Of a DNA stretch of 64,000 nt, positions 47,344 through 64,000 are shown in pieces. The stretch is from Leptolyngbya sp. SIO1E4 (lineage in GTDB: Bacteria; Cyanobacteriota; Cyanobacteriia; Phormidesmidales; Phormidesmidaceae): the NCBI GenBank assembly GCA_010672825.2, contig JAAHFU020000002.1, forward strand, positions 1,314,001 through 1,378,000, in the 5' to 3' direction. The translations under genes were made by a program, and so were the position numbers. Each line of letters starts with the position of its first letter. Position 1 is the first letter of the stretch. The notes beneath the pieces were generated by a model. It was not told the origin of the DNA and did not search any database. It saw nothing but the letters and a program-made list of their open reading frames with translations.

Positions 47344-47437
47344 TTTGGGTTCCTGAGAAATCTCCCAAGCAGCCACACACGTCCTCAGCCGGTGCATTGC
47401 CAAGCTCCAATTGTCGCGCTTCAGAGCAATTGTCACG

Positions 47438-50400
47438 ATGGCCAACTATTATCAAATCGGCGGCAGTCTCGATTATAAAGCCCCGACCTATATTGAACGA
47501 CAAGCCGATAGAGACCTCTACACTGCCTTATTAGGGGGCGAGTTTTGCTACGTCTTTAACTCTCGTCAGATGGGCAAATCGTCACTGATGGTGCGCAGCT
47601 GGCACCGGCTACAGGCAGAGGGCCATCGCTGCGCGGTGGTAGATGTCACCAATATTGGCAGTGACCACATCACGCCCGAGCAATGGTACCGGGGCATGAT
47701 GAGCACGCTGGCGCTGCAGTTTAATCTCCACACCCGTGACATTCGCAGCTGGTGGCAAGCGCACAGTCACCTGTCTTTAACCCAGATCCTGAGTCAGTTC
47801 ATTGAAATGCTGCTGGCTCAGTGCTCCGAGCAGCGGCTATTCATCTTTGTAGATGAGGTGGATAGTCTGTTAAATCTGCCCTTCTCGGTAGATGACTTTT
47901 TTGCCTTAATTCGCTTTTGCTACAACCGACGCACCATTGAGCCGGACTACAAACGATTGACCTTTGCCATCTTTGGAGTGGCAACTCCGGCTGACTTGAT
48001 TGCCGATAAGCAACGGACACCCTTCAATATTGGTCGGGCGATTGTATTGAATGGCTTCAGTTTGGAAGACGCTATGCCCCTGGCTCAGGGGTTAGACCTT
48101 CAGACACCCAATACTCAAGCGATTTTGCAGGAAGTGTTGAATTGGACCGGGGGGCAACCCTTTTTGACTCAGAAAGTGTGCCAATTGTTGGTTTCCTTTA
48201 GTCAAACGGCGGTGAATGAGCCGCTGAAGGTGCCCCCTGGGATGGAGAAATTTTGGGTGGATAGTGTGGTGCGATCGCACATCATTGACCGCTGGGAATC
48301 TCAAGATGAACCGGAGCATTTGCGCACCATTCGCGATCGCCTGCTCTACGACGAGCGTCGTACAGGACGTTTGCTCGGGATTTATCAGCGCTGGTTAGAA
48401 GGGCAGGTGATTTCTGCCGATGACAGCCGGGATCAAATCGAGCTTTTGCTGAGTGGAGTGATGGTGCAGCAAGCAGGACAGCTGCGCAGTAAGAATCAAA
48501 TCTATGAAAAGGTGTTTGATTTAGCGTGGGTGCAAAGACAGCTCAATGCCCTGCGCCCTTATGCCGAAGCGTTTGATGCTTGGGTCGCCTCGCAGCAAAC
48601 CGATGAATCGCGACTGTTGTGGGGTCAGGCATTGCACGATGCCCAGGATTGGGCTCAGGGTAAAAGCCTCAGCGATTTAGACTATCGGTTTTTGAGCCTG
48701 GGGCAGGAGCAGGAACAGACAGAGGTTCAAAAAACGCTAGATCTAGAGAAAGCAGAAGCGGCCAAACGCACTACTCGGCTGCAGCGCATTCTCTTGGGGA
48801 TCACTTCAGGGGCATTAGTCATTGTTTCTCTGTTAGGCTTAACGGCTTTTCGGCAATATCGTCGGGCCATCAGCAGTGAGCAGAATGCTCGTTTGAGTGA
48901 ACAAACCTCTCGCCTGAATGAAATTCGAGCCTTGATTTCATCGGCAGAAGGGCAGTTTGACTCTCACCATGAGCTAGAAGCTTTGATAGATGCGATTAAG
49001 GCCAAGCGTCGTCTGCAGGATCTAGAAACGACTGAGCCAGACTTGGAGACTGCAGCAAATAGCGTACTCAGCCAGATCGTCTATTGGATCACGGAACGCA
49101 ATCGGCTGTCAGGCCACCAATCTGGGATTTTGGGAATAGCCTACAGCCCAGATGGGACGGTGATTGCGACGACTAGCGCTGATCAAACCATCAAGCTCTG
49201 GGCTCAGAATGGCAAACTTCTCCATACCTTAAGCCATAGTGCTTCACCCTATGGGGTTGCTTTTCATCCACTGCACCCCCTGCTGGCCGTTACTACACTG
49301 ACGGGTGAGCTGACACTCTGGAACCTGGAAGATAACACCTTAATGCATGTCGTTCAGGCCCATGTTGGACCCGTGTGGGATATCGCCTTTGCCCCCAAGG
49401 CAGACTTTCTAGTGACGGGGGGATCCAATCAGCAAGTCAAGCTGTGGTCTCTAGACGGCACCCTCAACAAAACACTCTCAGGGCACCAAGATATTGTGAT
49501 TCAGGTGGCTGTGAACCCAGCCGATCAAACCATTGCATCCGCCAGTCACGACCGTACAGTCAAAATTTGGACGCCTGATGGCCAGCTCCTGAGGGCTTTG
49601 CCAGCTACCCAAAATGTTTGGACTGTGGCATTTAGTTCCACAAGTGATTTACTGGCCCTGAGTGGGGATGATGCAGACATTCAACTGTGGCGAACTAATA
49701 AAGAGCACCATTTGACCCTGGAAGGCCATACTAAGCGGGTTGAACGGCTTGCCTTTATTCCGGACATGAATGCGATCGCATCGACAGGATTAGATCACAC
49801 CGTTCGGATATGGGGGCAAGATGGCCTGACCTGGCGCGTTGTCCCAGTTGCAGAAGATGCCCGTAATTTAGCCTTGTCTCCAAATCAGCCCCATACCATG
49901 GTGACCTCTGGCTTCAAGAAGGTAGCCCAAATTAGACAGTGGGAAAATCCACTTCTCAAAACCGTCTTTCTAAACGATGAACCCTTTGATATTGCTGTGA
50001 GTCCCGACGGAAACAGGCTGATCTCGGGAGATAACTCTACCCTCCACATCTGGGATTCAGAGCGGCGTATCGTTGGCACGCTAGAAAAGGGCCAGGCTCG
50101 GCTACAAGGATTTGATTTCAGCTCCGATGGGCAAATGCTAGCAGCAGTGGGAGCCGACGGCACGGTGCAGCTTTGGACACCGGATGGTCGTTTTTTACGA
50201 GACCTAGAGGGCCTTGAGTTTATTGCCTTTGATGCAGCTTTTAGTCCCGACAGTCAGCAGATAGCGGTAACTGCCGAAGATGGCACAATTTCTATTTGGA
50301 CAGTCGAGGGAGATCTTATCCATACTCTCCACAGTCATGAAGGACGAGGTCATCGGGTGATTTTTAGCCCCGATGGGCAGAAACTGATCTCCTCCGGCAC

Positions 50401-50923
50401 GGATGGTACAGTTCAAATCTGGCAGGCAGATGGCACTCACCTCCGTAGCATTGATGCCCACAAGGGTGTGATTTTTGGTTTGTCTGTGAGTCCTGACGGA
50501 AAGTTCTTTGCGTCTGCTGGATCTGATCAAATCACCAAACTCTGGCGCTGGGATGGCACTTTGGTTAGAACCTTTGAGGGCCATACAAATCATATTTACG
50601 GGGTTGACTTTAGCCTTGATGGGCAGATGTTGGCTACCGCTAGTGATGATCAAACTATTATTCTCTGGTCTTTGGATGGGGAGAAAATTAAAACTCTCTA
50701 CAGCCATGGCCGTGGGTTCAAAAGCGTGAAGTTTAGCCCCAGTGGGGAGCTTGTGACAGCGGCTGAAGATGGGACGATCACCCTGTGGAATCTAGAGGAG
50801 ATTCTGGTGATGAATGAGCTGGAGTATGCCTGCAATTGGATTGCTGATTATTTAGAAAACAATGCAGAGGTGACGGAGGACGATCGCACCCTTTGCGAGG
50901 GCATCACGACCAATCCTTTCTGA
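47438..50923 (+). CDS. AAA_35 ATPase / TM / 14-repeat WD40 protein, copy 1
   Basis: 1161 residues from the ATG at 47438. Residues 1-420: PF14516-type 'AAA-like' NTPase ('YYQIGGSLDYKAPTYIERQA', Walker A-like 'NSRQMGKSSL' with Lys47, Walker B 'FIFVDEVDSL' 135-144, and sensor-like 'DYKRLTFAIFGVATPADLIA'). A transmembrane helix lies at about 451-475 ('GITSGALVIVSLLGLTAF'). Residues about 555-1130 hold 14 WD40 blades, which fits two seven-bladed propellers; several end in 'V-x-L-W' or 'V-x-I-W'. The layout resembles STAND-class signalling ATPases: a switch ATPase and a repeat sensor, here membrane-anchored. No effector domain is fused. It is followed after 19 nt by its paralogue. The role is unknown; sensing or defence is inference. 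Confidence 0.92.
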   Translation: MANYYQIGGSLDYKAPTYIERQADRDLYTALLGGEFCYVFNSRQMGKSSLMVRSWHRLQAEGHRCAVVDVTNIGSDHITPEQWYRGMMSTLALQFNLHTRDIRSWWQAHSHLSLTQILSQFIEMLLAQCSEQRLFIFVDEVDSLLNLPFSVDDFFALIRFCYNRRTIEPDYKRLTFAIFGVATPADLIADKQRTPFNIGRAIVLNGFSLEDAMPLAQGLDLQTPNTQAILQEVLNWTGGQPFLTQKVCQLLVSFSQTAVNEPLKVPPGMEKFWVDSVVRSHIIDRWESQDEPEHLRTIRDRLLYDERRTGRLLGIYQRWLEGQVISADDSRDQIELLLSGVMVQQAGQLRSKNQIYEKVFDLAWVQRQLNALRPYAEAFDAWVASQQTDESRLLWGQALHDAQDWAQGKSLSDLDYRFLSLGQEQEQTEVQKTLDLEKAEAAKRTTRLQRILLGITSGALVIVSLLGLTAFRQYRRAISSEQNARLSEQTSRLNEIRALISSAEGQFDSHHELEALIDAIKAKRRLQDLETTEPDLETAANSVLSQIVYWITERNRLSGHQSGILGIAYSPDGTVIATTSADQTIKLWAQNGKLLHTLSHSASPYGVAFHPLHPLLAVTTLTGELTLWNLEDNTLMHVVQAHVGPVWDIAFAPKADFLVTGGSNQQVKLWSLDGTLNKTLSGHQDIVIQVAVNPADQTIASASHDRTVKIWTPDGQLLRALPATQNVWTVAFSSTSDLLALSGDDADIQLWRTNKEHHLTLEGHTKRVERLAFIPDMNAIASTGLDHTVRIWGQDGLTWRVVPVAEDARNLALSPNQPHTMVTSGFKKVAQIRQWENPLLKTVFLNDEPFDIAVSPDGNRLISGDNSTLHIWDSERRIVGTLEKGQARLQGFDFSSDGQMLAAVGADGTVQLWTPDGRFLRDLEGLEFIAFDAAFSPDSQQIAVTAEDGTISIWTVEGDLIHTLHSHEGRGHRVIFSPDGQKLISSGTDGTVQIWQADGTHLRSIDAHKGVIFGLSVSPDGKFFASAGSDQITKLWRWDGTLVRTFEGHTNHIYGVDFSLDGQMLATASDDQTIILWSLDGEKIKTLYSHGRGFKSVKFSPSGELVTAAEDGTITLWNLEEILVMNELEYACNWIADYLENNAEVTEDDRTLCEGITTNPF

Positions 50924-50942: not shown

Positions 50943-53900
50943 ATGACCAACTATTATCAAATCGGCGGCAGTCTCGATTACAACGCCCCAACCTATATTG
51001 AACGACAAGCCGATAGAGACCTCTACACTGCCTTATTAGCGGGCGAGTTTTGCTACGTCTTTAACTCTCGTCAGATGGGCAAATCGTCACTGATGGTGCG
51101 CAGCTGGCACCGTCTACAGGCAGAGGGCCATCGCTGTGCAGTGGTAGATGTCACCAATATTGGCAGTGACCACATCACGCCCGAGCAATGGTACCGGGGC
51201 ATGATGAGCACGCTGGCGCTGCAGTTTAATCTCCACACCCGCGACATTCGCAGCTGGTGGCAAGCGCACAGTCACCTGTCTTTAACCCAGATCCTGAGTC
51301 AGTTTATTGAAATGCTGCTGGCTCAGTGCCCCGAGCAGCGACTATTCATCTTTGTAGATGAGGTGGATAGTCTGTTAAATCTGCCCTTCTCGGTGGATGA
51401 CTTTTTTGCCTTAATTCGCTTTTGCTACAACCGACGCACCATTGAGCCAGACTACAAACGATTGACCTTTGCCATCTTTGGGGTGGCGGCCCCAGCAGAT
51501 TTGATTGCCGACAAACAACGCACACCCTTTAATATTGGTCGCGCCATTGTGCTGCATGGGTTTGACTTAGAAGAGGCTGCGCCTCTGGCTGCAGGATTAG
51601 AGATTCAAACCCCCAATACTCAAGCGATTTTGCAGGAAGTGCTGAACTGGACGGGGGGGCAACCCTTCTTGACCCAAAAGGTTTGCCAATTGTTGGTCAC
51701 CTCTAGCCAGACGGCGGTGAATGAGCCGCTGAATGTGCCCCCCGGGATGGAAAAATTTTGGGTGGATAGTGTGGTGCGATCGCACATCATTGACCACTGG
51801 GAATCTCAAGATGAGCCGGAGCATTTGCGCACGATTCGCGATCGCCTGCTCTACGACGAGCGTCGCACGGGGCGCTTGCTGGGGATTTATCAGCGCTGGT
51901 TAGAAGGGCAGGTGATTGCCACCGATGACAGCCGAGATCAAATTGAGCTGCTGTTGAGTGGCCTGATGGTGCAACAAGAGAGCCATCTTCAGGCGAAAAA
52001 TCCGATTTACGAAAACGTTTTCACGATGGACTGGGTACAGCGTCAGCTGAAGGCCCTGCGCCCCTATTCCGAGGCGTTTGATGCTTGGGTTGCCTCCCAG
52101 CAAACCGATGAATCCCGGCTGTTGTGGGGGCAGGCATTGCGCGATGCCCAAACCTGGGCCAGGGGCAAAAGCCTGAGCGATTTAGATTATCGCTTCCTGG
52201 CCCTGGCCCAGGAGCAAGAACAGGCAGAGATTCAAAAAACGCTGGATCTCGAAAAAGCTCAGGCCGCTGAACGCACCGCACGTCTGCAGCGGATCCTCTT
52301 AACCATTACCTCTGGGGCATTGGTCATCGTTTCTGTGCTGGGCCTAGCGGCCTTTCGACAATATCGACGGGCGATCGCGAGTGAACAAACCTCCCGTCTA
52401 AATGAAATTCAAGCTTTGGTCTCATCTGCCGAGGGGCAATTTGCTTCTTACCATGAATTAGAGGCTTTGATTGATGCCATTAAAGCTCAGCGCAATCTCC
52501 AGACTATTCAGGAAAGTCATCCAGAATTGGAAGCAGCCGCTGATCGCGTCTTGCACCAGATTGTTTACTGGATGAGTGAGCGTAATCGACTGTCGGGACA
52601 TGAAGGTCACGTTTTAGGGGTTGCCTACAGTCCGGATGGAGAATTGATAGCGACGGCTAGTGGCGATCAAACCGTTAAGCTCTGGGCCAACAACGGTCAA
52701 CTTTTGCACACCTTTGCGGGTAATGCCACCACCTTTGGCGTAGCGTTCCACCCCCAGCTTCCCCTGTTAGCGGCAACCAATTTAGACGGTAGCTTGCAGA
52801 TTTGGGATCTTGAATCAAAAGCATTGGTGCAAACGATTCAGGCCCATGAAGGTGCTGCCTGGAGTTTGGCCTTTAGCCCCACAGGAGAATTTTTAGTCTC
52901 AGGGGGAGCCGATCATCACGCTAAAGTCTGGAACCTAGACGGAATTTTGCTCAGAACGCTGTCGGGTCATCAAAGCATGGTTTGGCAAGTCGCCGTGAGT
53001 TTAGTGGATCAAACCATTGCTTCAGTTAGTTTGGATAATACGGCCAAAGTTTGGACTACCGATGGTCAACTCCTGAGCATACTACCGGGTCCCCTTGAAG
53101 GTGGAAGTCTTTGGAGTTTGGCCTTTAGTGCTATGGGCGACTTAGTGGCCACTGGAGGCGATGGTGAAGTGATACAGCTTTGGCAGCTCGATGGAACGCT
53201 CAGCACAACTTTGGAGGGGCACACAAAGCGAGTTGAAGGCGTCGCATTCGCGGATGATGGCACTGCGATCGCCTCCGCAAGCCTGGATAAAACCCTTTGG
53301 ATTTGGGGAGAAGATGGAAGTCCCTGGCGCATCCTTCAAACCCCAGGCGATATCCGCGAACTCAGCTTTTCTCCCACCGATGCTCAATCCATCGTAATGA
53401 CCGGAACTCGCAACACGGCTCAACTCAGGCAATGGGAAACATCGCTGCTCAAAACCATCTTTCTCAATGACGAGATTTGGGATATTGCCGTCAGCCCTCA
53501 AGGGGATCGGATTATCTCTGGCGATAGCTCAACGGTTCATGTTTGGGATACCGATCGCAACATCGTTGCTACTTTACAAGCAGACGAGATTCTGTTTGGA
53601 TTCGACTTTAGTCCAGATGGCCAAATGATTGCGACAACTGGACACAACGGCACCCTTAAGCTTTGGACTCAGGAGGGGCGTTTCCTAAGAGATTTAGAAG
53701 GGCATCAACTGCAAATTTGGGATGCTGCCTTTAGCGCTGATAGTCAACGCGTGGTCGCTGGTGCAGAAGACGGTACCCTCCGAGTCTGGACGGCTGAAGG
53801 AGACCTCATTCATACCCTTGAAGGCCATAATGGACGGGTCTATCGTGTGGCGTTTAGCCCCACTGATCAAAACTTCGTCTCATCAGGTTCGGATGGGACG

Positions 53901-54398
53901 GTTCAGGTGTGGGATGCTGAGGGTAATCGCCTGCATCTGATTGAAGCCCACGATTCGGATATTTTTGGGCTATCGGCAAGTCCGGATGGTCAGTTTTTTG
54001 CCTCCGCCAGTGCTGATCGTACAGCCAAGCTCTGGCGATGGGATGGTACGTTAGTCAGCACCTTCGAAGGGCACACCACGGGTCTTTTCGGCGTGGATTT
54101 TAGTGCTGATGGGCAAATGCTGGCCACGGCCAGTGCCGATAATACCGTTACCCTATGGACCCTAGATGGTGAACCCATCAAGACCCTCTACGGCCAAGGA
54201 TCCGGCTTCAAGAGCGTGAAATTTAGCGCCACAGGAGAACTCGTCACCGCCGCTGAAGATGGCACCCTCACCCTCTGGAACCTGGAGGAGATTCTGACTT
54301 TAAATGAGCTGGAGTATGCCTGTGATTGGATTGCCGATTACCTGCGTACGAACACTGAGGTGGAAGAGAGCGATCGCACTCTCTGTGACGGTTTGTGA
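50943..54398 (+). CDS. AAA_35 ATPase / TM / 14-repeat WD40 protein, copy 2
   Basis: 1151 residues, tandem paralogue of the preceding gene and almost certainly co-transcribed. Through residue 204 I count five substitutions against copy 1 (positions 2, 14, 33, 130, 183). Divergence rises after residue about 205 and is high in the propellers. It has the same order: AAA_35 with 'NSRQMGKSS' and 'FVDEVDSLL', TM near residue 450, then 14 WD40 blades ('LSGHEGHVLGVAYSPDGELI' first; 'FKSVKFSATGELVTAAEDGT' last). The end 'LEEILTLNELEYACDWIADY' matches copy 1's end. A conserved motor half with a fast-evolving sensor half is what diversification of recognition would produce. Confidence 0.92.
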   Translation: MTNYYQIGGSLDYNAPTYIERQADRDLYTALLAGEFCYVFNSRQMGKSSLMVRSWHRLQAEGHRCAVVDVTNIGSDHITPEQWYRGMMSTLALQFNLHTRDIRSWWQAHSHLSLTQILSQFIEMLLAQCPEQRLFIFVDEVDSLLNLPFSVDDFFALIRFCYNRRTIEPDYKRLTFAIFGVAAPADLIADKQRTPFNIGRAIVLHGFDLEEAAPLAAGLEIQTPNTQAILQEVLNWTGGQPFLTQKVCQLLVTSSQTAVNEPLNVPPGMEKFWVDSVVRSHIIDHWESQDEPEHLRTIRDRLLYDERRTGRLLGIYQRWLEGQVIATDDSRDQIELLLSGLMVQQESHLQAKNPIYENVFTMDWVQRQLKALRPYSEAFDAWVASQQTDESRLLWGQALRDAQTWARGKSLSDLDYRFLALAQEQEQAEIQKTLDLEKAQAAERTARLQRILLTITSGALVIVSVLGLAAFRQYRRAIASEQTSRLNEIQALVSSAEGQFASYHELEALIDAIKAQRNLQTIQESHPELEAAADRVLHQIVYWMSERNRLSGHEGHVLGVAYSPDGELIATASGDQTVKLWANNGQLLHTFAGNATTFGVAFHPQLPLLAATNLDGSLQIWDLESKALVQTIQAHEGAAWSLAFSPTGEFLVSGGADHHAKVWNLDGILLRTLSGHQSMVWQVAVSLVDQTIASVSLDNTAKVWTTDGQLLSILPGPLEGGSLWSLAFSAMGDLVATGGDGEVIQLWQLDGTLSTTLEGHTKRVEGVAFADDGTAIASASLDKTLWIWGEDGSPWRILQTPGDIRELSFSPTDAQSIVMTGTRNTAQLRQWETSLLKTIFLNDEIWDIAVSPQGDRIISGDSSTVHVWDTDRNIVATLQADEILFGFDFSPDGQMIATTGHNGTLKLWTQEGRFLRDLEGHQLQIWDAAFSADSQRVVAGAEDGTLRVWTAEGDLIHTLEGHNGRVYRVAFSPTDQNFVSSGSDGTVQVWDAEGNRLHLIEAHDSDIFGLSASPDGQFFASASADRTAKLWRWDGTLVSTFEGHTTGLFGVDFSADGQMLATASADNTVTLWTLDGEPIKTLYGQGSGFKSVKFSATGELVTAAEDGTLTLWNLEEILTLNELEYACDWIADYLRTNTEVEESDRTLCDGL

Positions 54399-54579: not shown

Positions 54580-55959
54580 ATGGATCCTGATAAAGTTCTA
54601 CTTGCAATTGAAGATCGATTGCTGAGACGGAAACTCAGCCCTGCAGAACGAATTGTTCTAGGCCAAACTTGGAATAAGCAGACCTATGACCAAATGGCAA
54701 AGCATTCTGGATATGGGGACGCTCATCTAAAAGACACCGGTTATAAGTTATGGCGAGAGATTTCTCGCGCCGTGGGGCAACGGGTAACCAAAAAGAGCCT
54801 GTTATTCGTTCTACAGGAACACCTGCAGGCATCCTCCGCCTCAGCAAAGCCAATCGTTACGGTCAAATCAGCTGCACCAACCCCAAAGGTACAATCAACC
54901 TCAACGGCACAATCAACTTCAACGGTACAAGCGCAGCCCCAACTGCAGTATCCTTCTGGGCCGCTGCCTCCCCATTCCCCGCTGTATATTAATCGCCCCC
55001 CGAATGAAGGGTTAGCCTATGCAGAAATTCAGCGCCCTGGAGGGTTTCTGCGCATCAAGGCTCCCCAAAAAATGGGCAAAACATCCCTCGTGTTTCGCCT
55101 CATTCAGGTGGCAGAACAGCAAGGCTATCAGACTGCTCACCTCGATCTACAAACCGTTGATCAAGCGGTATTTACCAGTATTGATACGTTCCTGAGATGG
55201 TTTTGTTTAAGGGTGAGCCAAGCCCTCAATATTTCCCCTCAGCTCGACGAATATTGGGATCCCTCGATGGGGTATAAGGTCAGCAGTGAACTCTACTATC
55301 AAGAGCATCTTCTTGCACAAAGTCAAACGCCCATTGTGCTGATCATTTCTGCCGCTGAAGACCTGATTCAACATCCAGCGGTAGCCCAGGATTTCTTTCC
55401 CTTACTCCGCTCCTGGCATGAAAAGGCTAAATGGAGTTCCCTGTGGCGAAACCTGCGCCTGGTGATTGTTCATGCCACTGAAGTGTATGTGCCGTTAAAG
55501 ATTCATCAATCGCCGTTTAATGTTGGCCAGGCAATCAAACTTCCGGGGTTTACCGCTGCCCAAATATACGAGTTAGCAGCCCGCTACGGGTTAGACCAGA
55601 TTGATAACGCCTGTGCACAAACCCTGGTGGATTTAGTCAGCGGACATCCGTATCTGGTGAATGTATTTTTCTATCATCTGGCGACACAAGCCCTGACGAT
55701 AGACGATTTAATCAAAACCGCTGCCACTCCTTCAGGGCTCTACGGCACTCACCTGCGAAATTATCTGATGCTGCTGAAGCAAGACCCTGACTTAGCCATT
55801 GCCCTTAAACAGATTGTTTCTACCCCAGAAGGGATAGAACTCGATGCAGTGACTATGTACCGCCTGGAAAGCCTTGGGTTAATAAAAATAAAAGGCTATC
55901 AGGCAGTCCCTAGTTGTGAAGTGTATCGCTCGTATTTTCACCAGCAGCTGAGTTTTTAA
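54580..55959 (+). CDS. vMAP-HTH / AAA_35 ATPase
   Basis: 459 residues. N-terminal 85 residues match the vWA-MoxR-associated protein HTH ('LLRRKLSPAERIVLGQTWNK', 'QTYDQMAKHSGYGDAHLKDT', 'GYKLWREISRAVGQRVTKKS'). A low-complexity Thr/Ser/Gln linker follows (about 86-125), then an AAA_35 module: 'FLRIKAPQKMGKTSLVFRLI' with Lys167, a degenerate Walker B ('PIVLIISAAEDLIQ', 251-264, without the DE pair), 'WSSLWRNLRLVIVHATEVYV', and a winged-helix-like end. Weak or no ATP hydrolysis is likely; it may act as a nucleotide-bound adaptor. It lies 181 nt after copy 2 on the same strand. I assign the HTH from memory of the family. Confidence 0.82.
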   Translation: MDPDKVLLAIEDRLLRRKLSPAERIVLGQTWNKQTYDQMAKHSGYGDAHLKDTGYKLWREISRAVGQRVTKKSLLFVLQEHLQASSASAKPIVTVKSAAPTPKVQSTSTAQSTSTVQAQPQLQYPSGPLPPHSPLYINRPPNEGLAYAEIQRPGGFLRIKAPQKMGKTSLVFRLIQVAEQQGYQTAHLDLQTVDQAVFTSIDTFLRWFCLRVSQALNISPQLDEYWDPSMGYKVSSELYYQEHLLAQSQTPIVLIISAAEDLIQHPAVAQDFFPLLRSWHEKAKWSSLWRNLRLVIVHATEVYVPLKIHQSPFNVGQAIKLPGFTAAQIYELAARYGLDQIDNACAQTLVDLVSGHPYLVNVFFYHLATQALTIDDLIKTAATPSGLYGTHLRNYLMLLKQDPDLAIALKQIVSTPEGIELDAVTMYRLESLGLIKIKGYQAVPSCEVYRSYFHQQLSF

Positions 55960-56239
55960 AGGGTAAATCTCTTGGATTTGTTAACTTTAATGTTGCTCAT
56001 CGATCGCTTCTAAACCGACTTTTCCGGCTTTACTTTCCTCATCCGCTTTGATTAGATGTGGGAGCCAGTCGTCAGCGAAGACTTGGCAATTCTTTAATCA
56101 AGAAATTTCGATCTAAGGTGCTTAGCCTGCATCCTTTTCTATTGGCTACTTCAGTCTGCTGGAGGCAGGCTTCTTTCGCGAGCTCAGACGGCAAGCTTTG
56201 CACGAGTCGGAGTCTACAGTTCAAGGAAATTTTGAAGCT

Positions 56240-58390
56240 ATGGGTAGGGTTGTTTTTGTCAAAATTCATGCAGTTATTGCAACGGGTATTCTTGCGATAT
56301 TTGCAGTGTCAGGGTTGCCAGCCCTTTCTCAAGAAGCAGAAGGCGAAGCGGAGGCGACCGAAGAGCAGTCTATTTTGGTGGAATCCACCATCGTTGGGGA
56401 TGTCGATCCATCTGCGGCTGTGACCGTAGAAGATCTGACCATCCCAGTCGATCAGCTGGAGCTGTTGGTTAAACCCTTAACGCTTGAGGAACTCCAAATA
56501 GAAGCGGCAGCCTGGTTGCTTTTACTTAAGGACAAAGTTCAGGAAATTAGTCAGGCTGAAATTGCTATCAAACGTCAAAACCTGGCAATTGAATCTCAAG
56601 AGGCAGCTGCCAGCGCAGTGACCGAAGCCGAAGCTAGACTCAGTGAAGCGGAAGCCAAACTAGAAGAGGCATCACTCGGGACACCAGAACATGAGCAGGC
56701 GTCTGAAGAACTAGAGGCGGCAAGGCAGTCCCTACGGGAAGCAGAGCAGGCGGTTGAGGCGGCCCTTGAGACGGGGGCGGAGCTTCAGGAAGATGAGGAG
56801 TTACAAGCGGTTTTAGAAGAAGCCGAGAGCGAAGAAGAGATCGTTACGGCTCGACAAATTTTGGACGAAGCTAGAAAAGCGCGTGATGAACAATTCACGG
56901 CTGGGTCTGCGTCGTATGACGCCGCAACCCTGCACATTGATGCGTTAGACCAGGCTCTCATCGATTTAGAGGGAGCTGAGGAAGCGTTAGAAGGGGCTGT
57001 TCCTGAATCCTCTGAATATGAACAGTTAGCGGCAGAAGTTGAACAGGCCAGAGCGACGGTGCAGCAGAAGGTGGAGGTGATCTTTGATTCTGGGTTAGCC
57101 CCACAGGGAACAGAAGAAGCAGAGGAATCGGTAGCGTCTGAAGAGTCTGAAGAGACCCTAGAAGGAATCGCGGCTGATCTTGAAGAGGCAGAGGAACAGA
57201 CCGACGCTACTGCAGTTGCAGATGGAGAGAGTGAGGTCTCTGAAGAACAGCTCGAAGCAGTGGCCGACCAGCTTGAGGGTGTGGCAGAAGCCGAGTCAGA
57301 TCTCAAGAATCAACTGGTCGTGAATGTCACTAACTTGCAAGGGGAGCGGACGGCGATTATTGATCGCTTCAACATCATTTTAGATGCCTTAGATCAAAAG
57401 GGCGGTGACACCATTTCCTATCGCAAATACATAGATGCTGTCAGTGGTATTGAACTTGATATTACAGATACAGAAGGGTTAGGCGTCCGACTAGTCAGCT
57501 GGTTGCGATCGGAAGAAGGGGGAGTCCGTTGGGGCATTAATCTGGCTAAGTTTGTCGGCATTTTGCTCGCCTCGGTAATCGTTTCTCGCTTGCTGGCCAG
57601 GGTTACGGATCGCTTGCTCGCTCAAGTCGGTGGCACCTCTGCGCTATTTCGTGAATTTGCCGTGATGGTGATTCAACGCGGGGTGTTGGTGTTCGGTGCG
57701 CTACTAGCACTGGCCTCCCTAGGGGTGAGCTTAGGCCCCATTTTGGCACTGGTTGGAGGTGCAAGTTTTGTATTGGCCTTTGCGCTCCAAAGCAATTTGG
57801 GCAACTTTGCCAGTGGGCTTATGTTGCTAGTGAATAAGCCATTTGATGTGGGTGACGAGGTCAAGGTCGCGGGCTATTGGGCCTATGTAGAATCGATTTC
57901 CCTTGCCAGCACCAAGCTTAAGGATTTTGGTGGCAACGTCGTTACTCTACCCAATAATACGGTTTGGGGGGGTGACATTATTAACTATACCCATTCCGAT
58001 ACTCGCAAGATTGGGTTGGCCATTCATATCAAATTCTCTCAAGACATAGATAAAGTTCTCGCCATGTGGCTAGAAATTACTGCCTCCCATCCGCAAGTTT
58101 TAGAGACTCCTAAGCCTGGTTTCTTCCCCTGGAATGCCCATTATGACTACTACATTTGGATAAACCTAACAGCTTGGTCAAATACTGATGTCTATTGGGA
58201 TGTCTATGTTGACTTGCTCAAGTCTTTACAACAACGTCTTGACGAGTTGGGAATTGAGTTGGCTGCCCCTCAGCAGGAGATTAATCTTCATCAAATTTCT
58301 GAGGAAAAAAACGCGTCTCAAGGGTTTTCTTCGCAACCTCATCTACCGGCCTCAACAGCTTCAGTGCCGTCTTCGAACTTGTCGGATTAA
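56240..58390 (+). CDS. MscS-family channel with long periplasmic coiled coil
   Basis: 716 residues from the ATG at 56240, with AAGGAA about 13 nt upstream; the open frame to 56198 is a TTG. A signal peptide (residues 6-31, 'IATGILAIFAVSGLPALS') is followed by about 380 residues of Glu/Ala-rich coiled coil with an internal duplication ('LEEASLGTPEHEQASEELEA' and 'LEGAVPESSEYEQLAAEVEQ'). Then come MscS-core TM helices ('WGINLAKFVGILLASVIVSR', 'MVIQRGVLVFGALLALASLG', the pore 'GGASFVLAFALQSNLGNFAS'), the Gly-rich beta domain ('PFDVGDEVKVAGYWAYVESI', 'VVTLPNNTVWGGDIINYTHS') and a cytoplasmic vestibule. A mechanosensitive or gated ion channel in the plasma membrane. It lies 280 nt after the third ATPase. 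Confidence 0.92.
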   Translation: MGRVVFVKIHAVIATGILAIFAVSGLPALSQEAEGEAEATEEQSILVESTIVGDVDPSAAVTVEDLTIPVDQLELLVKPLTLEELQIEAAAWLLLLKDKVQEISQAEIAIKRQNLAIESQEAAASAVTEAEARLSEAEAKLEEASLGTPEHEQASEELEAARQSLREAEQAVEAALETGAELQEDEELQAVLEEAESEEEIVTARQILDEARKARDEQFTAGSASYDAATLHIDALDQALIDLEGAEEALEGAVPESSEYEQLAAEVEQARATVQQKVEVIFDSGLAPQGTEEAEESVASEESEETLEGIAADLEEAEEQTDATAVADGESEVSEEQLEAVADQLEGVAEAESDLKNQLVVNVTNLQGERTAIIDRFNIILDALDQKGGDTISYRKYIDAVSGIELDITDTEGLGVRLVSWLRSEEGGVRWGINLAKFVGILLASVIVSRLLARVTDRLLAQVGGTSALFREFAVMVIQRGVLVFGALLALASLGVSLGPILALVGGASFVLAFALQSNLGNFASGLMLLVNKPFDVGDEVKVAGYWAYVESISLASTKLKDFGGNVVTLPNNTVWGGDIINYTHSDTRKIGLAIHIKFSQDIDKVLAMWLEITASHPQVLETPKPGFFPWNAHYDYYIWINLTAWSNTDVYWDVYVDLLKSLQQRLDELGIELAAPQQEINLHQISEEKNASQGFSSQPHLPASTASVPSSNLSD

Positions 58391-59156: not shown

Positions 59157-62100
59157 ATGTTGACGGAGAAAATTCTAGAGAAATATCGTCTATTACTGCC
59201 CTGGAAAGGTACTGCTGCAGAGTGCCCAGATTACCCGTGCATTCATCAACTATTTGAATCCCAAGTAGAACGCACGCCCGATGCAATCGCTGTGATATTT
59301 GAGGAGCAACAGCTCACTTATCAAGAGTTGAACGATCGCGCTAACCAGCTTGCTCACTACTTGCAAGGGTTGGGGGTAGGGCCAGACGGGTTAGTGGGGC
59401 TTTGCCTCGAGCGTTCGTTAGACATGGTGATTGCTCTGCTCGGCATCCTGAAAGCCGGGGGCGCTTATGTGCCTTTAGACCCGGTGTATCCGAGCGATCG
59501 CTTGGCTTACATGCTGGCCAACTCGCAAGCATCGGTGTTGCTGACTCAAACTCAATTCCTGGAACGACTGCCCCAGGGTGAAGCCCAGGTTATTTGCCTA
59601 GAGACTAATAGAGCAGCCATTTCCACCCAAAGCGATCGCAATCTCCCCAACAACACGACCCCAGAGAATTTGGCTTATGTCATCTACACCTCTGGTTCCA
59701 CAGGAAAGCCGAAAGGGGTCATGATGGGGCATGGGGCTCTGGTTAATCTCATCTGTTGGCAGCTAGAACAGACCACTATTTCCCTAAAAGCCAAAACCCT
59801 GCAGTTTTCGCCCATCAGCTTTGATGTCTCGTTTCAGGAAATTTTTACCACTTGGTGTGGGGGTGGAACGCTCGTCTTAATTTCAGACAAAGTGCGACGA
59901 GATCCCGTCGCTTTACTGCATTTGCTGGCAGATAGAGAAGTCGAAAGGTTATTTCTACCTTTTGTGGCCTTGCAGCAGCTTGCTGAAGTCACCAAGAGTT
60001 TTAAGCTGTTGCCGAGAAATTTGGGAGAGGTGATTACGGCAGGGGAACAGTTACAGGTGACTGGGGAGATCGTTTCCTTTTTCTCCCAATTGCCGAATTG
60101 TACGCTGCACAATCAATACGGCCCCTCAGAAACCCATGTGGTAACGGCTTTGACTCTGAAAGGGTTGCCCCAGGAGTGGCCGGCTTTACCGGCTATCGGT
60201 TGTCCTATTGCCAATACTCAGATCTATTTGCTGGATGAGTCCCTGCAACCCGTTCCCAAGGGTGTGGCTGGGGAGTTATATGCGGGTGGGATTTGTTTGG
60301 CGCGGGGCTATATTCATCGAGAAGATCTCACCCATGAAAGATTTATTCCTAATCCCTTCAACCCAGAATTTTCTTCCCGTTTATACAAAACTGGCGACTT
60401 AGCCCATTACCTGCCTGATGGCAATATCCAATTTTTGGGTCGCATCGACGCTCAAGTAAAAATTCGCGGCTACCGCATTGAAATTGGGGAACTTGAGGTG
60501 GTGTTGAGCCAATATCCTGCGGTGAAACAATCTGCAGTGGTCGCTCGGGAAGATAGTCCAGGGGATAAACGCCTGGTCGCTTATGTTGTCCCGGTTGCTG
60601 AAGTACCAGAATCGCCAAAATTAGAGGATGGCGTGGAAACCAAGCAAGTTCAGCAATGGGAAAAAATCTGGGATGAAGCGTACGGTCAGCCTGCCGATGA
60701 TTGGGAGTCAGGCTTTCATATGGGTGGCTGGTATGACACCTACACTGGAAAAGCCCTGCCAGAGAAGCAGGTACGGGAGTGGGTTGACTTTACAGTCGAA
60801 CGGATTCTATCCCTACAACCTCAGCGAGTCCTGGAAATTGGCTGTGGTACGGGCTTACTGCTATTTCAGATTGCGCCCCATTGCCAGCATTACTGCGGCA
60901 CCGATATTGCATCTGCAGGACTGCACTATATCAATCGCCAGATTCAGGGCAGCCCACTCGCGGCATCCGTAACCCTGCGTCATGGTGCAGCGGACGAACT
61001 TGAGGATATGGAGGCTGCCTCCTTTGATACCGCGGTTATTAATGGCGTTATCCAGTTTTTTCCAACGATGGATTACCTGGTGCGCGTGATTGAACGCGTT
61101 ATCCAGTTAGTCAAACCAGGAGGCAGTGTTTTTATTGGAGATGTGGAGAGTTTTCCTTTATTGGAAGTTTTTCATACCTCGGTGCAGCGAACTCAAGCGT
61201 CTGTTTCCTTATCGACAGCGGCCCTGCGCGATCGCATCCAAAAGCAAACGGCACAAACCCAAAAACTCGCGATCGCCCCAGAATTCTTTGTGGCCCTCAA
61301 AGCGCATTTACCCCAAATTAGCCATGTAGAAATTCAACTCAAGCGCGGGCGTTATCAGAATGAACTGACGCGCTTCCGGTACGACGTGGTTTTGCATCTA
61401 GGCAAAAACGCCTCTGCTCCCACAACGTCTCCCAGTTATCTGAACTGGCAGCAGGATACGTTAACGGTGGCGACTGTTCGCCAGTACCTGGTAGAAAACG
61501 CTCCAGAAATGCTCGTGGTTACCCGCGTCCCCAACGCCAGAATTTGGGCAGACGTGAGGGCAATGGAATTATTAGCCAGTCCGAATTGTCCTGCACGTGT
61601 AGAAGAACTGCGCCAACAGATCTCCCCCGCAGGGATTGAACCCGAAGACTGGTGGGAATGGCAATCTGAGGTTCCTTATCGGATTAACATTACCGGGTCT
61701 GGCAACGGTGGGGAGAGTGACTATGATGTGGTGTTCGTGCGGAACGATACCCCGATCATTCCAGACAGCACCCTCATTTCCCCTCAAGAAAACACCCTTA
61801 AACCTTGGAAGGTTTACGCCAATCAGCCCTACACCGGTGCTAAGCCCAGTCAACTCATCCCTAAGCTGCGGGAATTCCTTACAGATAAACTGCCGGATTA
61901 TATGATGCCCTCGGCATTTGTTGTTCTGGAAGAATTGCCCCTGACCCCCAGCGGAAAAGTAGACCGACGCGCCTTACCGGCCCCCGATAACGCTCGTCCA
62001 GTGATGGATGTAGAACTGCTGATACCCCGAACGCCCACAGAAGAAATTCTCGCCAGTATTTGGACAGAGGTATTGAGTCTCAATGAAATCGGGGTACTCG

Positions 62101-64000
62101 ACAACTTCTTTCTCTTGGGGGGAGACTCTCTGCAAGCGACTCAACTGATTTCACGAGTCCGCGACATTTTTCAAATAGAACTATCGCTACATCGGCTGTT
62201 TGAATCTCCCACGATCGCGGAGCTGAGTGAGGATATCTTAGGCGCCAGTTATCAACAACTCACTGCGATTCAACCTATCCCGCGAGCGGGGGAATTGCCC
62301 CTATCCTTTGCCGAGCAACGGTTATGGTTTTTAGATCAATTGCAGGAGGAAAGCACAACCTATAACGAACAAGAAGCGTTGCGTCTGACCGGTTCCCTGC
62401 AGGTAGAAATACTCCAGAGAGCGGTGCAAGAAATCGTTCGCCGTCATGAAATCTTACGCACTAATTTCCAGGCGGTGGATGACTCAACCGTGCGGGTGAT
62501 TCGCCCTGAGCTGGTGTTGAAAATGGCCGTTGTTGATTTACAGCCGTTGTCAACAGAAACACAGCTTTCTGAAGTGCAGCAGTTGGGTCAGCAAGAAATT
62601 CGGAAACCCTTTGATCTTGCGAACGATCCTCTCCTGCGAGTGACGTTATTACAGTTGGCACCCCATGATTATGTGCTGCTGCTCACCATGCACCACATCA
62701 TTACGGATGGCTGGTCAACGGGGGTATTTAGCCATGAATTGGCAGCACTCTACGGAGCATTTGTGCAAGGGAAACCCTCTCCGTTACCCCAACTGCCTAT
62801 CCAATATGCCGACTTTGCTAGCTGGCAGCGGCAACCTGCGACGGCTGAAGTCTTAGCCCCTCAACTGAATTACTGGAAACAACAGCTGGCCGGAGCGCCC
62901 CCTCTGTTAGAACTGCCTACAGACTATGCCCGTAAAACGGTGCAGATTGCCCAAGGGGGCAAAGAATTTTTTGAGCTTGGGGCTGAATTCACTGAACCGC
63001 TCAAGCGTCTGAGCCAAGAAAGGGGCGTAACGCTATTTATGACGCTATTGGCCGCGTTTAGCACCTTACTTTATCGCGATAGCAACCAAGCAGATATTCT
63101 TGTCGGAACGCCGATTGCCAACCGCAACCGCAGCGAACTAGAAGGGCTTATTGGCTTTTTTGTGAATACGTTGGTGTTGCGATCTCGCTTTGAAGCCAAT
63201 CTCACTTTTGCTGAATTATTGGATCAGGTACGGCAGACGGCTTTGGATGCTTACGCCCATCAGGATGTCCCGTTTGAGCAGTTGGTGGAGGCTTTGCAAC
63301 CGGAACGCAGCCTCAGTTACACCCCCATATTTCAGGTGATGTTTGCCCTACAAAATGCGCCGATGGCACCTCTGGAGTTACCGGAGGTAAGTTTCAAGTG
63401 GCTCCCGCTGGAAAATGCAAAGGCTCCGTTCGATCTATTTCTGTCCATGGAGGAGACAGAAACAGGTTTAGTGGGATCTTGGGAATACAATCGCAATTTA
63501 TTTGAACGAGCCACGATCAAGCGGGCAATTGGACATTTTAAGACCTTGCTGGCAGCGATCGTGGCTAACCCCCACATGGGTGTTGACGAACTGCCATTTT
63601 TGACAGAGCCAGAACGCCATCAGTTGCTCATCGAGTGGAACAATACTCAAGCCACTTATCCCCACGATAAATGCATTCATCAGTTGTTTGCAGAACAGGT
63701 GAAACGCACTCCCGACGCTGTGGCAGTTGTTTTTGAAGACGCACACCTGACCTATCAGGAATTGAACGATCGCGCGAATCAACTGGCGCGGTATTTGCAG
63801 AGCTTAGGCGTTGGGCCAGAGGCATTGGTGGGGATTTGTCTTGAAAGATCCCTCGAAATGGTGGTGGGATTGTTAGGCATTCTCAAAGCCGGTGGTGCTT
63901 ATGTGCCGTTAGATCCTGATTATCCAGCCGAGCGCCTCGCTTATATTCTTGATAACTCCAGAGCAACGGCCCTCATCACTACCCATCAATTAGCCGCCCG
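59157..64000 (+). CDS. Non-ribosomal peptide synthetase, A-nMT-PCP-C-A... (partial)
   Basis: The open frame runs from ATG 59157 (AAGGGAAG upstream) to the window end without a stop: 1614 residues and incomplete. Order: adenylation domain A1 from residue about 20 with 'YVIYTSGSTGKPKGVMMG' (A3), 'FDVSFQEIF' at 222-230 (where many A domains have FDASVWE), 'NQYGPSETHVV' (A5), 'YKTGDLA' (A7) and 'VKIRGYRIEIGELE' (A8). Then an inserted N-methyltransferase, about 495-880, with SAM motif 'VLEIGCGTG' (558-566), then A10 'LTPSGKVDRRAL' near 932, a PCP with Ser991 in 'FLLGGDSL', a condensation domain with 'MHHIITDGWS' (His1179, His1180, Asp1184), and a second A domain from about 1485. There is no C domain in front, so this is an initiating module loading an N-methyl amino acid. 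The product is unknown. Confidence 0.96.
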   Translation, partial: MLTEKILEKYRLLLPWKGTAAECPDYPCIHQLFESQVERTPDAIAVIFEEQQLTYQELNDRANQLAHYLQGLGVGPDGLVGLCLERSLDMVIALLGILKAGGAYVPLDPVYPSDRLAYMLANSQASVLLTQTQFLERLPQGEAQVICLETNRAAISTQSDRNLPNNTTPENLAYVIYTSGSTGKPKGVMMGHGALVNLICWQLEQTTISLKAKTLQFSPISFDVSFQEIFTTWCGGGTLVLISDKVRRDPVALLHLLADREVERLFLPFVALQQLAEVTKSFKLLPRNLGEVITAGEQLQVTGEIVSFFSQLPNCTLHNQYGPSETHVVTALTLKGLPQEWPALPAIGCPIANTQIYLLDESLQPVPKGVAGELYAGGICLARGYIHREDLTHERFIPNPFNPEFSSRLYKTGDLAHYLPDGNIQFLGRIDAQVKIRGYRIEIGELEVVLSQYPAVKQSAVVAREDSPGDKRLVAYVVPVAEVPESPKLEDGVETKQVQQWEKIWDEAYGQPADDWESGFHMGGWYDTYTGKALPEKQVREWVDFTVERILSLQPQRVLEIGCGTGLLLFQIAPHCQHYCGTDIASAGLHYINRQIQGSPLAASVTLRHGAADELEDMEAASFDTAVINGVIQFFPTMDYLVRVIERVIQLVKPGGSVFIGDVESFPLLEVFHTSVQRTQASVSLSTAALRDRIQKQTAQTQKLAIAPEFFVALKAHLPQISHVEIQLKRGRYQNELTRFRYDVVLHLGKNASAPTTSPSYLNWQQDTLTVATVRQYLVENAPEMLVVTRVPNARIWADVRAMELLASPNCPARVEELRQQISPAGIEPEDWWEWQSEVPYRINITGSGNGGESDYDVVFVRNDTPIIPDSTLISPQENTLKPWKVYANQPYTGAKPSQLIPKLREFLTDKLPDYMMPSAFVVLEELPLTPSGKVDRRALPAPDNARPVMDVELLIPRTPTEEILASIWTEVLSLNEIGVLDNFFLLGGDSLQATQLISRVRDIFQIELSLHRLFESPTIAELSEDILGASYQQLTAIQPIPRAGELPLSFAEQRLWFLDQLQEESTTYNEQEALRLTGSLQVEILQRAVQEIVRRHEILRTNFQAVDDSTVRVIRPELVLKMAVVDLQPLSTETQLSEVQQLGQQEIRKPFDLANDPLLRVTLLQLAPHDYVLLLTMHHIITDGWSTGVFSHELAALYGAFVQGKPSPLPQLPIQYADFASWQRQPATAEVLAPQLNYWKQQLAGAPPLLELPTDYARKTVQIAQGGKEFFELGAEFTEPLKRLSQERGVTLFMTLLAAFSTLLYRDSNQADILVGTPIANRNRSELEGLIGFFVNTLVLRSRFEANLTFAELLDQVRQTALDAYAHQDVPFEQLVEALQPERSLSYTPIFQVMFALQNAPMAPLELPEVSFKWLPLENAKAPFDLFLSMEETETGLVGSWEYNRNLFERATIKRAIGHFKTLLAAIVANPHMGVDELPFLTEPERHQLLIEWNNTQATYPHDKCIHQLFAEQVKRTPDAVAVVFEDAHLTYQELNDRANQLARYLQSLGVGPEALVGICLERSLEMVVGLLGILKAGGAYVPLDPDYPAERLAYILDNSRATALITTHQLAA

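Follow-up and report, generated by a model that had tools for sequence, protein, structure and literature searches.

We analysed a window of 64,000 nucleotides from Leptolyngbya sp. SIO1E4 in which three successive forward-strand genes encode proteins with the AAA_35 domain (PF14516). The first two form a tandem pair. Copy 1 (47411..50923, + strand, 1170 aa) and copy 2 (50943..54398, + strand, 1151 aa) share one architecture, in which an N-terminal AAA_35 domain with a weaker profile match (~100 bits) is followed by a hydrophobic segment and a WD40 region; copy 1 matches the first 500 aa of copy 2 at 91% identity. Walker A and the Walker B acids (DE) are intact in copy 2, and Walker B reads FVDEVDSL in both. 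Each copy has a single hydrophobic segment (19-residue hydropathy 2.2-2.4), and both proteins are probably anchored in the membrane.

The third gene (54580..55959, + strand) starts with an ATG 181 bp past copy 2 and encodes 459 aa. Its open reading frame, Pfam matches and predicted structure define a helix-turn-helix (HTH), a linker and an AAA_35 domain of the STAND type with a degenerate Walker B. AAA_35 is matched over residues 124-455 at 428.3 bits against a cut-off of 27 and across the full profile (1-331 of 331), but the acids of its own Walker B are lost. Walker A, APQKMGKTSL (residues 161-170, 55060..55089, + strand), is intact and includes K167. The Walker B position reads IISAAEDL (residues 255-262, 55342..55365, + strand) and lacks both acids. 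A preliminary description of this DNA had placed a third AAA_35 gene directly after the pair, with the Walker A lysine kept and IISAAEDL in place of FVDEVDSL, and it was right on each of these points. Further along, GHPYL (residues 355-359, 55642..55656, + strand) is presumably the counterpart of the STAND GxP motif. An MscS-type channel gene (56198-58390) and a large ORF (59157-64000) follow.

Annotation offers little about function. The Pfam description of PF14516 ('AAA-like domain') states none, and an NCBIfam profile search of the third gene gave no match. RecA matches were set aside; they span only ~40 residues around the P-loop.

A predicted STAND fold with a degenerate site

The structure model of the third gene product (pLDDT 91.5) has a nucleotide-binding domain (NBD), a helical domain and a winged-helix domain in that order over residues ~122-459. 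Its closest relatives in VIA-align comparisons are the archaeal proteins PAB2304 (2qen; Z 21.3, rmsd 4.2, 311 aligned) and SSO1545 (2fna; Z 21.0), and it also aligns with the plant NLR RPP1 (Z 17.9, rmsd 4.2, 290 aligned), CED-4 (Z 17.6, rmsd 4.6, 292 aligned), Dark (Z 15.8) and Apaf-1 (Z 15.4). Foldseek matches include Avs3 and Avs4. ORC/Cdc6 proteins come close to the top scores (ORC2, Z 19.0), so the fold alone does not prove membership of the STAND class, and domain context supplies the rest. On this model, the protein is predicted to have the STAND NTPase fold, shared with the immune and cell-death receptors of animals and plants. The STAND form of Walker A is present as GKTSL, with K167 invariant among orthologues. 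At Walker B, where the consensus is hhhhD[DE], the protein reads IISA, and for this reason we class it by its fold, as a STAND protein whose site is degenerate, and not as an active STAND ATPase.

The N-terminal HTH (residues 1-87, 54580..54840, + strand) is defined by predicted structure and conservation. Modelled alone, it has five helices (pLDDT 86.2), and its structural matches are nearly all of the LuxR type, at Z 7.8 to 6.2, where the tool's own note treats values under 8 as not conclusive. Sequence searches are less informative: Pfam has no match to residues 1-100 up to E 10, a PDB sequence search gave no name, GerE came up only at E 0.36, and the sole PADLOC match, at the N-terminus, has E 0.025. 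In a few other g1-type members of the family, GerE and sigma-70 region 4 are matched by sequence. The preliminary description had called this module a vMAP-type HTH. An HTH of LuxR/sigma-4-like shape is indeed predicted; the vMAP label finds no backing in Pfam, from which a vMAP HTH model may be absent. Conservation along the protein is highest in the HTH core (residues 17-80), with 53/64 positions invariant in seven orthologues. Similar HTH-like N-termini occur on seven other proteins of the same genome (L107-L113), joined to WD40, NACHT, NB-ARC/TPR or REC-GGDEF (response-regulator/GGDEF) parts, and because they share it the module may serve as an adaptor and not only as a DNA binder.

Conservation of the gene and its link to the upstream pair

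Orthologues of the third gene are found in 7/63 genomes of the family (68-73% identity, next best 44%), at nine loci, one of which is apparently split over two contig ends (L095 and L096, not joined). The Walker B glutamate is alanine at 9/9 loci, so a sequencing error does not explain its loss. The second acid, the aspartate, is missing from 8/9 loci and kept at L091, and across the clade the two positions are S/G/D and A. In the seven clean full-length copies, from which L092 is excluded by an assembly gap inside its frame, K167, T168, A258 and E260 are invariant, as are 9/10 positions of Walker A, 105/197 positions of the NBD and 54/139 positions of the helical and winged-helix parts. The frame is open at all eight loci not cut by a contig end. 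Values of dN/dS, computed for 21 pairs that do not include L092, are 0.04-0.19 in the nine pairs with measurable dS, the other 12 being saturated. These low ratios indicate purifying selection on the clade.

A same-strand gene of the upstream type lies directly upstream at 6/9 loci (the window, L088, L090, L093, L094 and L096), as a tandem at three of them; the retrieved stretches at L089, L091 and L092 contain none. Two of these three loci belong to one genome, G033, which has the upstream type elsewhere, and one is a second copy in G002. The gene order on which the preliminary description had staked its proposal of a partner is thus conserved at six loci and not at three. The gap between the two genes varies from ~0.1 to 1.46 kb, so a common transcript is not assured, and a promoter scan over the genes gave no more matches than shuffles.

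Orthologues of the upstream genes (82% identity or more, next 61%) are present in exactly the same 7/63 genomes. The corresponding p-value, 1.8e-9 if genomes were independent, and that for two genus codes of mixed presence (both genes 6, neither 8, one alone 0; p 3.3e-4) are optimistic, since related genomes share descent. In G033, the upstream pair is 0.9 Mb from one copy of the third gene and on another contig than the other copy. The genes are unlinked there yet both present, and the link between them is therefore independent of adjacency.

The cassette is found in two different neighbourhoods. At the window, L090 and L092, the third gene lies beside the MscS gene and a large ORF, L092 being without the upstream type. 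At L088, its neighbours are an ammonium transporter, a Cache-cyclase, an MscS protein with a cNMP domain and a glutaminase; L093 and L094 are assigned to this second neighbourhood by length and order only, L088 being the locus whose proteins were scanned.

Two groups of AAA_35 proteins that occur in pairs

AAA_35 proteins fall into two groups, short ones that include the third gene (here g1) and fused ones that include the tandem pair (g2). HMMs built from members in the window's genome tell the groups apart, and in our tree a starred branch separates the 83 g1 rows from the 11 g2 rows. Within its 8.2 Mb, the window's genome has five strong short g1, seven weaker, mostly fused g2 and two marginal matches. 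Each of its five g1 has a same-strand g2 nearby; g1 comes first in four cases and last in the window.

Pairing extends to related cyanobacteria. Across 19 genomes, comprising the window's genome and 18 relatives, 55/66 g1 have a g2 within 6.5 kb, and 65/74 g2 have a g1 within 15 kb. Nine intermediate or low-score matches were left out of these counts, as were weak matches in three genome searches (<=27.3, <=36 and <=20.7 bits). The usual arrangement, seen in 44/60 cases outside the clade of the third gene, is g1 then g2 on the same strand, in many cases with a 4-base overlap or a gap of a few tens of bases; the order at the window is the reverse.

Erosion of Walker B is recurrent and confined to one side of the pair

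Set against other g1, a fairer comparison than with the upstream pair, the third gene still shows the loss, and the other four g1 of its genome all have DE at Walker B. For a wider view, we compiled 75 g1 frames, one without a readable Walker B and two without a readable Walker A. This set combines the sites of the pairing count with extra loci chosen for likeness to the window's gene, so its proportions do not represent a random sample. Walker B is DE in 45/74 g1 frames, and the glutamate is lost, with Walker A kept, in 24/74, seven of these 24 being a mild change to DD. Walker A is GK[ST] in 72/73 frames and GRS in the other. Among 72 g2 frames, one is unreadable, and the remaining 71 have DE in 70 cases and EE in one. 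The asymmetry between the groups is marked (Fisher p 2.7e-9, with rows that are not independent). One alignment, A2, holds 50 rows hand-picked for length and spread. Placed on the tree, the state of the glutamate changes 12 times, seven of them forced by starred branches, a count that does not separate loss from regain. Judged by these motifs, the window's gene appears to be one case of a recurrent, one-sided erosion of Walker B.

A further variant falls outside the 24/74. Eight Microcystis loci (L038, L039, L041, L042, L043, L044, L045 and L050) and L047 have a g1 with Walker B ALDN, in which the aspartate is kept and the glutamate is replaced by asparagine (DN); the retrieved stretches of these nine loci contain no g2.

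Two features tend to be absent together with the glutamate: the usual adjacent g1-then-g2 arrangement is missing from 18/24 g1 that lost it and from 11/50 that kept it, and TIR is present in 0/24 and 22/50, respectively. The 50 glutamate-keeping g1 carry TIR_2 in 22 cases, CHAT in nine, a cyclase in four, a caspase in two and a kinase in one; the 24 that lost the glutamate have one kinase and no TIR, CHAT, cyclase or caspase. This contrast follows clades. In tree-based pair tests, neither arrangement nor protein length, a stand-in for the effector domain, is significantly associated with the loss (median p 0.25 and 1), and with these results we do not claim arrangement or output domain as its cause.

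PADLOC matched no system protein over the AAA_35 part; its defence models do match other g1 in their TIR, CHAT, caspase and cyclase parts. Some g1 have composite or unusual N-termini, namely CHAT-TIR, caspase-TIR, cyclase-TIR or kinase (L118, L120, L128, L135, L140, L142 and L141). Such output domains are described as typical of nucleotide-dependent conflict systems (PMC7159879).

A proposed two-protein STAND system

The best reading of the third gene, to which we give a probability of about 0.55, is that it encodes half of a two-protein STAND system, as the non-hydrolysing partner of g2. The preliminary description had put forward a non-hydrolysing partner or switch for the two full ATPases. 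The lack of hydrolysis agrees with the clade-wide loss of the Walker B glutamate beside an intact Walker A, the partnership with the upstream g2 and the exact co-occurrence, both at the level of sequence. In such a system, g2 would be the sensing half, with WD40 propellers and a complete ATPase site, and g1 would be the half with a variable output module, an HTH here and TIR, CHAT, caspase, cyclase or kinase elsewhere. The g1 protein probably still binds ATP despite the lost acids, and most likely does so without hydrolysis, which would leave it in a nucleotide-bound, assembly-competent state in which the hydrolysing g2 partners govern its activity. Once a signal is sensed, g1 and g2 could form a mixed assembly that gathers the HTHs, their target being either DNA or an adaptor with a matching HTH.

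AAA+ proteins that lose the Walker B glutamate but keep Walker A usually bind ATP and do not hydrolyse it. Plant receptors offer a precedent: slower hydrolysis makes I-2 autoactive, and the executor NLRs of pairs are described as often having a degenerate Walker B, one of them, NARY, not being autoactive (PMC12405136). Because of the AAA+ effect and this plant precedent, we favour a g1 that is held nucleotide-bound under the control of g2.

One alternative is that the third gene encodes a MalT-like transcription regulator, made up of a STAND part and a LuxR-type HTH, that is gated by ATP and acts alone on neighbouring genes, without a g2 complex. The LuxR-like HTH is better conserved (53/64 core positions) than the NBD (105/197), the structural matches include 8bob, from maltose system regulation, and the variable g1-g2 gaps leave a common transcript in doubt. 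We nevertheless consider such a regulator unlikely, given that g1 and g2 co-occur exactly even where they are unlinked and that TIR, CHAT, cyclase and kinase domains, which are not DNA binders, fill the position of the HTH in the family. Slightly less probable again is a live site, in which E260 replaces the lost glutamate or hydrolysis takes place at a shared site completed by g2. Besides the intact Walker A, such a site would account for E260, which lies two residues on and is invariant in 7/7 orthologues, at a place where D or N is usual in other g1; against it, S/G/D and A occupy the actual Walker B positions, and most other g1 that lost the glutamate gained none at the place of E260. That the gene is a decaying copy without function, as its lost catalytic residues and three orphan loci might suggest, is very improbable in view of the open frames at all eight uncut loci, the low dN/dS where measurable and the nearly invariant Walker A.

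Non-hydrolysing g1 partners of g2 would resemble several known systems. The STAND NTPases CED-4, Apaf-1/Dark, plant NLRs, SSO1545 and PAB2304 have the same order of NBD, helical and winged-helix domains as g1, and variable N-terminal output modules are common to them and the g1 family; here, the system is split over two genes, each with its own NTPase domain, one of which lacks the Walker B acids. Apaf-1 carries WD40, as does the g2 partner. Plant paired NLRs (RGA4/RGA5, RRS1/RPS4, NRCX/NARY) are, like g1 and g2, two linked and divergent STAND genes, and one partner often has a degenerate Walker B (PMC12405136, PMC9528088). The plant pairs are head-to-head and built on NB-ARC, whereas g1 and g2 are bacterial, built on AAA_35 and mostly same-strand, head-to-tail; the likeness, with g1 and g2 known here from sequence, concerns how such pairs might work. 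The iSTAND proteins of MoxR-vWA ternary systems, which are common in cyanobacteria, offer another parallel, as STAND proteins without catalytic activity whose N-terminal effector or adaptor domains vary (PMC7159879). Their partners are MoxR and vWA, neither of which is among the seven neighbouring proteins scanned, whereas the partner of g1 would be a second, intact STAND protein. Some cyanobacterial sigma-factor proteins combine a sigma-type HTH and AAA_35 in one chain, as g1 is predicted to do, with AAA_35 or NB-ARC reported as an accessory domain of the sigma factor; the available part of PMC11119718 mentions neither a pair nor loss of Walker B.

In our search of the literature on AAA_35, PF14516, STAND and paired NLRs, with most subscription journals outside its coverage, no g1-g2 pair was described; STAND and paired-NLR entries concern plant pairs, fungal NLRs and bacterial NLR-like proteins. 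More tentatively, and with somewhat less than even odds, cyanobacteria may have a general class of two-gene STAND receptors comparable with plant paired NLRs, each uniting a short AAA_35 protein that bears the effector with an AAA_35 protein that bears the sensor. The effector side would have turned repeatedly into a pseudo-ATPase dependent on the ATPase cycle of the sensor, the window's clade being a case fixed with an HTH output. Bacterial STAND proteins have mostly been studied as single chains. If such a class exists, a two-chain form with one obligatory hydrolyser and losses on separate branches would be a compact natural system in which to study the purpose of hydrolysis, as well as a bacterial counterpart for paired plant receptors. 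For AAA_35, the pairing suggests a function to look for.

Three loci differ in their gene content. One g2 in the window's genome (L055:6223-9825; G000:C4:228270) is without any g1 on its contig. At L166 (G002:C5:4747089-4749408), the g1 gene is present as two frames beside an intact g2. At L155 (G056:C1:4599000-4618000), one g1 with Walker B EE is followed by four g2 in a row.
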